Assembly: GCA_024685975.1 (NCBI GenBank)
Contig: JAIBDZ010000007.1
Location: 1-64,000 of the forward strand
From: Piscirickettsiaceae bacterium
Lineage (GTDB): Bacteria; Pseudomonadota; Gammaproteobacteria; Nitrosococcales; Methylophagaceae
Direction: 5' to 3'
Length of the DNA stretch: 64,000 nt
In this document: positions 16,540 through 18,181 of the stretch, piece by piece
Numbering within the stretch: the stretch's first letter is position 1
Layout: every line of letters begins with the position of its first letter
Position numbers and translations under genes: made by a program
Notes under the pieces: model-generated
Databases searched by the model: none
What the model saw: the letters and a program-made list of their open reading frames with translations, nothing else
Told to the model about the DNA's origin: nothing

Positions 16540-17394
16540 ATGGGAAAATCTCAAGCCATGGAAGAAATAGTTAATGCAATTAGCAATAGAATAAAAACTC
16601 CATATTTTGGATATTCAATACTCGCTTTTTTTGCATTAAATTGGCGAGGTCTTTTCTTATTAGTCCTTACGGAAGGTACGCCACAACATAAGCTAGCCGC
16701 CTTTGATCAGGTAACCAACATCCAATCCTTAATAATTTTTCCTCTACTTATCGGTTCTATCATTGCATTGTCAGCACCATGGTTAAGATACTTATTTGAA
16801 CTTTTATCTACAAAGCCTTTTGCATTAGTAGATGAACTTAAACTTAGTTCTCTTCATACAATCACAATAAAACAAAAAGAATTAGAGCAATCTAGAGCCG
16901 ACCTATTTGCGCTAAAAGAAAATGAGCTTATTGAGCGAGCCGAACGTGACGAAAAAGTAAAACAATTCGCCAATAGTGATGAAAAAAAGAAACTTGAAAA
17001 TGAGTTGGAAAAGCTAAGGAAGGAAAGAAATTCATTATATGCCCAACCAGCCCCTAACTTTCCACCTTTTGGTGCTGATACAGATTTTACTGTTGCATCT
17101 TTAGATAAAAAAGATCCATCGACAACTTTAAAACTACTTTCTAAAAATGCTATAGAACTCCTTAAAACTTCAGCACAATCAATCTCTGAAATCATAATAA
17201 TCACACACTCAACTAAACAATGGGTCAAGATTGGCGAGCATTCTTTTGGTGAAAAAAATAACCAAACCTTTTTAAGCTATAAAAATGCTCTAGAAGAACT
17301 ACTCCACTATGACCTAATCAAACAGACATCTTCTAACGAAAAGCGATTTGGTTTAAGCGATAAGGGTTGGGAGTTAACTAGGTTATTAATTTAA
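16540..17394 (+). CDS. Uncharacterised protein: N-terminal TMs, coiled coil, possible C-terminal winged-helix-like region
   Basis: Intact 284-aa ORF; TM stretches (YSILAFFALNWRGLFLLVL, SLIIFPLLIGSIIALSA), Lys/Glu coiled coil, C-terminus EELLHYDLIKQTSSNEKRFGLSDKGWELTRLL. Confidence 0.7.
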   Translation: MGKSQAMEEIVNAISNRIKTPYFGYSILAFFALNWRGLFLLVLTEGTPQHKLAAFDQVTNIQSLIIFPLLIGSIIALSAPWLRYLFELLSTKPFALVDELKLSSLHTITIKQKELEQSRADLFALKENELIERAERDEKVKQFANSDEKKKLENELEKLRKERNSLYAQPAPNFPPFGADTDFTVASLDKKDPSTTLKLLSKNAIELLKTSAQSISEIIIITHSTKQWVKIGEHSFGEKNNQTFLSYKNALEELLHYDLIKQTSSNEKRFGLSDKGWELTRLLI

Positions 17395-17403
17395 CCGCCC
17401 TTG

Positions 17404-17703
17404 TTCGAAGCTGAACCGTGAAAAACTATTTGAGACAAATACGACGAGTGTTTGAGCGTAGCGAGTTTTCGTCGTATCTAAAATAGATTAAAAGTGAGGT
17501 AACCCGTAGGGCAAGCATGGGCCGGCCTTTTGTTTGGTTCCGTTTATATTGATTCGCCACATCCATGTAGCTCACCTTTTGGGCGCCTCCGGCGTCTTAA
17601 TTTGTTCCAGACAAATTTATGGCCACACAAAATAAATGAACGCCCCTCGTGGCAGCGAATCTAAAGTAACCCTAAATCAAACAACCACTATTATGCTTTT
17701 ATA
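17404..17703. repeat. Structured noncoding repeat, copy 1 (with ~80-nt insertion relative to copy 2)
   Basis: 17501-17551 is 49/51 identical to 18060-18110; core hairpin ATACGACGA (17439-17447) / TCGTCGTAT (17469-17477); both copies end at TTATGCTTTTATA. Confidence 0.85.
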
Positions 17704-17783
17704 CCAATAATATCAGACCACCGGTTTCGACTTAATGTCGAGTCAGGGAAATGCGTGGCCATTTCCCTAACAACCCTAGGCCA

Positions 17784-17913
17784 CCCCTTGTTTTGGCCTA
17801 CGGCTTCACTCATATTTTGATTATCTTAGGCCGTCGGCCAAAACTCGCTTCGCTCAAACACTGGCCGCCTCTATGCCTAAAAGAATCAAAATATTCGCCA
17901 AAACAAAATGGGG
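17784..17913. repeat. Large nested hairpin carrying the shared loop in inverted orientation
   Basis: Successive complementary blocks: TTGTTTTGGC/GCCAAAACAA, ATATTTTGATT/AATCAAAATAT, TTAGGC/GCCTAA, CGGCCA/TGGCCG around loop aaactcgcttcgctcaaacac. Confidence 0.85.
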
Positions 17914-17963
17914 ATATTGGGAAGAGTATTTAAATTATGGAAAGAACTTTAGTGTGCCCTGAT

Positions 17964-18181
17964 GCGAAGCCGAGATTCGGAAAATTATTTGGAATAGTGT
18001 GATAGCTGTTTGAGCGTAGCGAGTTTCTATCACACCCAAATCATTTATCGAAACGAGGGAACCCGTAGGGCAAGCATGGGCTGGCCTTTTGTTTGGTTCC
18101 GTTTATTTTGGCCAAGCAAAATAAATGAACGCCCCCACGGCAGTGGATTCAAATCAAGCAAAATTCCTTATGCTTTTATAA
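17964..18181. repeat. Structured noncoding repeat, copy 2
   Basis: Core hairpin GTGTGATAG (17997-18005) / CTATCACAC (18027-18035) around tgtttgagcgtagcgagttt; second hairpin GTTTATTTTG-gccaag-CAAAATAAAT. Confidence 0.85.

Follow-up and report, generated by a model that had tools for sequence, protein, structure and literature searches.

A dispersed bacterial fold-back repeat with a GNA-capped hairpin and a predicted pseudoknot triplex, probably kept for folding as single-stranded DNA

The three loop-sharing hairpins that lie between two genes of a marine bacterium in the window (the whole 64,000-nt stretch of contig JAIBDZ010000007.1 that was analysed) belong to a dispersed repeat whose flanking arms differ in sequence between copies yet stay complementary, while its loop stays near-constant. 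On balance, and by somewhat more than an even chance in our judgement, the sequences favour a non-coding fold-back (MITE-like) DNA repeat, the conserved strand of which is kept for its folding as single-stranded DNA and which is moved in trans as a non-autonomous element. Each unit would consist of a two-tier hairpin and, in most cases, an H-type pseudoknot after it that holds a pyrimidine-loop triple helix; the hairpin would be closed by a 20-nt loop that hardly varies and contains a d(GA-GC-GNA-GC-GA) mini-hairpin.

The original prediction had placed three hairpins with a shared loop in this interval, and all three were confirmed, with the arms as described and with the outer block of copy 1 present after a bulge. 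The core TGTTTGAGCG[T/A]AGCGAGTTT forms the apical loop of each (Table 1). An 18-nt pattern allowing up to three mismatches had four matches in the window, whereas 100 shuffles gave 0.23 on average and never more than 1, and the loop TGTTTGAGCG-N-AGCGAGTTT with up to one mismatch was not found beyond the three window copies in the source genome (68% complete). Three features go beyond what had been predicted: the GNA-capped mini-hairpin inside the supposed loop, the pseudoknot/triplex module downstream of it, and the recognition of 17725-18143 as one dispersed unit made up of two divergent elements.

Table 1. Repeat features in the window, with predicted pairings
Feature	Position	Strand	Details
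Copy 1 long hairpin	17426-17486	+	outer stem CTATTT/AAATAG (17426-17431/17481-17486); inner stem ATACGACGA/TCGTCGTAT (17439-17447/17469-17477); apical loop 17449-17468
Copy 1 mini-hairpin GA-GC-GTA-GC-GA	17454-17464	+	inside the apical loop; GNA triloop on two G-C pairs, with tandem G.A; both G-C pairs change in compensation among copies
Copy 1 second GNA triloop hairpin CCC-GTA-GGG	17503-17511	+	C(GNA)G triloop enrichment
Copy 1 pseudoknot/triplex module	17524-17641	+	S1 17524-17527; loop 1 TTTTGTTT 17528-17535; S2 17536-17551; S1' 17621-17624; S2' 17628-17641; split by nested mini-element 17552-17618
Copy 2 long hairpin	17812-17894	-	outer stem 17812-17831/17875-17894 (20 nt, 90% complementary); inner stem CGGCCA/TGGCCG (17835-17840/17862-17867); apical loop 17841-17860
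Copy 2 pseudoknot	17742-17784	-	S1 GTGGCC 17779-17784; S2 17760-17771; S1' GGCCAC 17755-17760; S2' 17742-17753; loop 1 purine-type; pseudoknot read from the sequence, relatives having the same plan
Copy 3 long hairpin	17978-18045	+	inner stem GTGTGATAG/CTATCACAC; apical loop 18007-18026
Copy 3 GNA triloop hairpin CCC-GTA-GGG	18062-18070	+	triloop enrichment
Copy 3 pseudoknot/triplex	18082-18130	+	S1 TGGCC; loop 1 TTTTGTTT 18087-18094; S2 18095-18110; S1' GGCCA; S2' CAAAATAAATGAAC 18117-18130; variable triplet in the G.A-T version
Composite unit	17725-18143		copy 2 (minus) and copy 3 (plus), 5' ends face to face

The proposals that the folded structure is maintained and that the family is widespread both held. 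A scan of the GTDB genome collection gave at least 116 stretches matching the loop, and the taxa among the matches listed include beta-, gamma- and deltaproteobacteria, Bacteroidota, Firmicutes, Melainabacteria and candidate phyla, as well as single MAG contigs labelled Nitrospirae and Aquificaceae. Among the matches listed, 93 of 123 exact loop matches (76%) had uninterrupted complementary arms of at least 6 bp, compared with 6.6% of random positions, and 103 (84%) had arms of at least 5 bp; many of those listed below 6 bp pair again past one mismatch. Copies of the loop lacking complementary flanks, which would have spoken against the prediction, are accordingly the minority. We assessed covariation by swap controls and compensated changes, and in 226 distinct copies, which are related to each other and so count as non-independent events, the perfect arm run averaged 8.2 bp, falling to 3.4 bp when arms were swapped between copies. 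The structure covaries, and its spread between phyla is patchy: an exact loop match occurs in 10 of 399 Pseudomonadota genomes, and a match within three mismatches in 35 of the 39 genomes of the window's family, where some single matches may be due to chance. The covariance models of Rfam 15 gave no match at gathering and only chance-like matches at relaxed E-values, and none of the papers searched on the subject printed the core sequence, three text matches being unrelated. A plasmid search returned one carrier record, from Variovorax. No carrier was found among phage records, and a phage element was rejected as the identity of the repeat, only six IMG/VR stretches having been obtained, two of which (L153 and L155) have no complementary arms.

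The loop is itself folded in a conserved way. Its 20 columns are near-invariant in 164 well-paired copies, the exceptions being the N of GNA, a T/C site, the last base and changes of G-C pairs, and because the changes at two G-C pairs come in compensated sets (GC/GC to CC/GG in nine well-paired copies, with one change to A-T and one to T-A), we read it as a mini-hairpin, GA-GC-GNA-GC-GA. The mini-hairpin is absent from standard folding program output since such programs give no special treatment to GNA triloops or to tandem G.A pairs. The 20 nt include d(GCGNAGC), and DNA hairpins of this sequence are extraordinarily heat-stable and nuclease resistant (PMC4686876). Once the search loop was masked, C(GNA)G triloops numbered 87 against 11.5 in shuffles (7.6-fold) and were six times as frequent as in the flanks, whereas RNA-type loops were at background (GNRA, 6 against 6.5; UNCG, 1 against 1.9). 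Mismatches showed only a mild excess of G.T over A.C (51 to 35), which weighs against the favoured reading.

On the 3' side of most copies there is a T-rich/A-rich hairpin, the loop of which pairs with the immediately preceding sequence to give an H-type pseudoknot. The T-rich loop 1 tracks the interruptions of the stem 2 purine strand, to which it is parallel, in the pattern of a triple helix. Given that a strict pseudoknot finder was too narrow (a score of at least 15 in 16% of cases, against 0.9% upstream), we used an anchored swap test instead. S1 was at least 6 bp long in 34% of modules and in 6.6% after parts were swapped between copies; similarly, the parallel loop-1 match ran to at least 8 in 54% of modules and in 13% of swapped ones. 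The triplet at the interruption covaries, changing from C.C-G to G.A-T: 58 distinct sequences have C/C/G and 10 have G/A/T, and this is seen in gamma- as well as betaproteobacteria. The clearest single case is at locus L265, CCTTGAC-TTTTTCTCTTTGG-TTCTTTTCTCTTTTCC-GTCAAGG-AAAAAGAGAAAGAAC. The third strand therefore matches the purine strand of the hairpin as an intrastrand triplex should, and a triplex is predicted at the level of sequence. Elements of type C, among them the minus-strand copy of the window, carry a purine-rich loop 1 instead, which might form a purine-motif triplex.

Dispersed DNA repeats able to fold into a one-strand triplex have precedents in BoxC, PIT and TM_ECO. TM_ECO is a G-rich class II intrastrand triplex of 34-37 nt (PMC4666352), whereas the triplex predicted here is mostly of a pyrimidine, class-IV-type kind, lies in a pseudoknot and is coupled to a GNA-capped hairpin. 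The module sequences did not match the TM_ECO/BoxC consensus, CCCTCNCCCN(3-6)GGGNGAGGGN3GGGNGAGGG (PMC4666352).

Whether the fold was an RNA hairpin or a DNA cruciform had been left open by the original prediction; the folding has stood, and the choice now leans towards DNA in single-stranded form. We consider single-stranded DNA the more likely working form of the conserved strand, an indirectly supported assignment, because of the triloop types, the lack of a gene-orientation bias and the lack of a conserved upstream sequence or promoter. In 175 copies, with genes taken as simple open reading frames, the context was convergent in 74, tandem in 90 and divergent in 11, so that the repeats sit at gene ends in either orientation and avoid divergent intergenic regions, and thus promoters. 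The tandem contexts divide into 44 sense and 46 antisense, and for this absence of bias a role as a 3'-UTR or riboswitch was rejected. No conserved promoter was found upstream of the aligned copies; conservation ends at the 5' foot of the stem, which argues against a common one. The strand bias in GC skew was weakly negative (-0.028, standard error 0.007) and was not used because the copies are related.

The same structures could belong to a structured non-coding RNA, or an RNA 3'-end or terminator element, that spreads with mobile repeats, and this, the strongest of the rival readings, we regard as unlikely. The pseudoknot triple helix and the capped hairpin would then do their work at the RNA level, where they might, for instance, block 3' exonucleases. 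Triple helices within pseudoknots are a classical feature of RNA, which counts against the DNA reading, and telomerase RNA is one example of the known RNA design in which the U-rich loop of an H-type pseudoknot sits in the groove of stem 2; the location of the copies at gene ends is consistent with this, as is a terminator-like T run after the outer stem at some Firmicutes and candidate-phylum loci. However, neither the even division of tandem contexts nor the missing upstream promoter is what such an RNA would lead one to expect, and the enriched triloops are of the DNA type while RNA-type tetraloops are not enriched. Moreover, an alternative RNA fold of the loop would drop the closing G-C pair in the CC/GG variants, and Rfam holds no match. 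STAXI, which likewise bears a pseudoknot and for which single-stranded DNA was considered, provides the converse argument, since its UUCG loops argued for RNA (Weinberg et al. 2010, PMC2864571), whereas here GNA triloops, a DNA signature, are abundant and UNCG is not enriched. A structure kept through full sequence turnover usually suggests RNA; in this repeat the types of loop speak for DNA, and the family would therefore offer a direct test of bacterial selection for folded chromosomal single-stranded DNA.

The fold-back repeat is mobile in some lineages, and is likely to be so in the window. The module of Flammeovirga (128 copies), Arcicella rosea (47 to 55 copies) and Sedimenticola (about 95 copies) is contained in short, amplified, non-coding units that have lineage-specific terminal inverted repeats and unrelated flanks, as is characteristic of MITEs. 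Five of eight testable Sedimenticola copies are bounded by perfect 8-bp target duplications (TACCCGGC, GCCCGGGG, AATAATCC, ACCGTGCA and CCCCGGAC), and mobilisation in trans in this one lineage follows from the terminal inverted repeats together with these duplications. The 8-bp duplication and the GTAA ends of these units recall IS66 and fit it as the mover, yet its transposase is present in Sedimenticola only as a broken copy, and this candidate was set aside. No target duplication was recognised in Arcicella or in the window's family, nor a shared terminal repeat in the latter. In that family the evidence is of dispersal: the composite unit recurs whole at unrelated loci, with 69-77% identity over about 405-440 bp (L214, L222, L225, L227 and L228), and in one Methylophaga genome polA and xerC are separated by only about 80 bp, while most of its relatives carry copies at this place.

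The repeat thus resembles MITEs in being short, non-coding, dispersed and palindromic, in its terminal inverted repeats, in having no transposase of its own and, in Sedimenticola, in its 8-bp target duplications; it differs in that the terminal repeats vary by lineage while an internal fixed-loop module is common to several phyla. An all-against-all comparison of 2158 reading frames near copies revealed no shared neighbouring gene or transposase, returning only ubiquitous families and reading frames that run through the repeats. In the proposed mechanism, transposases acting in trans would move the repeat non-autonomously, the cap and triplex would form when the strand is exposed in replication, transposition or recombination, and the two might then either provide an end that resists nucleases or mark the site that a host or transposition protein recognises. 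A bolder proposal, which we advance only tentatively and with rather less than even confidence, is that the GNA-capped hairpin and triplex pseudoknot constitute a conserved single-stranded DNA module that is common to unrelated transposable elements across phyla, and that some host or transposition protein, itself widely conserved, recognises it. If so, the module would be the natural equivalent in DNA of a structured RNA domain. The 20-nt loop should also serve as a bait in many phyla to find the protein that reads the repeat. Similar outer inverted repeats (AAAATACCTAC...) were also seen in a candidate phylum (L017) and in Lachnospiraceae (L028), which hints at one mover in different phyla.

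The repeats occupy intervals in which small genes change. Between gatB and gshA the window has a frame of 284 aa (with no Pfam or PADLOC match) where the relative L231 has an unrelated one of 152 aa, and the exchange of the adjacent gene breaks at the repeat boundary, because homology between the two resumes at window position 17725, the outer end of the composite unit. Downstream of glmU there are four different genes in five genomes, of which one encodes HNH and SRA domains and another T5orf172; elsewhere the neighbours of copies include YoeB-YefM and an AAA/TOPRIM-like pair that resembles HEC-01 models. Single-gene hot spots next to repeats were noted downstream of glmU (L214, L219, L223, L227 and L229) and at window 16540-17394, their contents in related genomes being often defence-like (HNH-SRA, T5orf172, DUF3592) or of no recognised family. 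The repeat would be a previously unrecorded class that marks variable intervals rich in defence genes. Bacteroides ihuae (L264-L265) has eight direct copies interspersed with small groups of genes, among them ATPases and toxin-antitoxin-like pairs, and one duplicated gene block is bounded by copies; 51-bp tandem repeats lie immediately upstream of one copy.

Such arrangements raise the question of whether the repeat, read as a folded single strand, acts as a site of recombination that shuffles small accessory genes between units. Integron attC sites are recognised in this way and keep their structure while their sequence varies. The eight-copy array with its duplicated block and the variable defence or toxin-antitoxin genes adjoining copies in Methylophagaceae are what this would predict, but we consider it improbable, given that most copies lie outside arrays, that homologous recombination between repeats also explains the duplication, and that no integron integrase was found by the B. 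ihuae array (on inspection of reading frames) or as a shared neighbour of copies. The resemblance to attC is one of working only; in this repeat it is the loop that is conserved, not the ends.

Even less probable is an origin without selection, in which template-switch repair perfects the palindromes and the loop is merely carried along; the correction of imperfect palindromes by template switching is an established process, but it does not keep a 20-nt loop between phyla during complete stem turnover, compensate two short pairs inside that loop, or yield a three-way triplex covariation.

The suggestion of a REP-like family with a linked Y1 transposase was not borne out, and a REP/REPIN family mobilised through a RAYT (Y1) transposase, to which extragenic palindromes in many copies and in inverted, REPIN-like pairs might point, was rejected for the genomes tested by Y1_Tnp searches and is the reading to which we give least credence. 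REPs, tagged GTAG or CGTC, are 20-60 bp long, have a conserved stem and an end tag, and are tied to RAYT (PMC3733652, PMC3116915); here the stem is free, the loop is fixed, the members of a pair come from different stem families that do not match each other, and RAYT is not linked. No Y1 gene was found in several carriers, complete genomes among them, including G035 (99% complete, 15 pattern matches), G095 (29), G096 (14), G090 (14) and G079 (12), and at about 50 Y1 loci examined none was flanked by the repeat, the only copy (L288) lying about 1 kb off with two reading frames between. Aligned copies have no fixed GTAG or CGTC end tag, and GTAG is present only as one form of the GNA hairpin (CCCGTAGGG / CCCGAAGGG / CCCGCAGGG).

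Two further kinds of element accompany the fold-back repeat. Near the copies at L125, L127 and L146 there is another dispersed palindrome, of the form ATTCCCGC...GCGGGAAT, which resembles the Neisseria dRS3 repeat. A second mini-element, of 50-70 nt, is nested in single-stranded parts of the first (the apical or the pseudoknot loop) and has variable stems of its own and fixed loops (AGGA/CTGGA, GNA hairpins, ATGGAT). Its Sedimenticola form (L357, L361 and L029) has two AYGGAY loops, a likeness to the TwoAYGGAY motif (Weinberg 2010) in name only, with no match in Rfam. It was seen as well in copy 1 of the window and at L310, L311 and L317, and a single such insert is the sole difference between L307 and L308.
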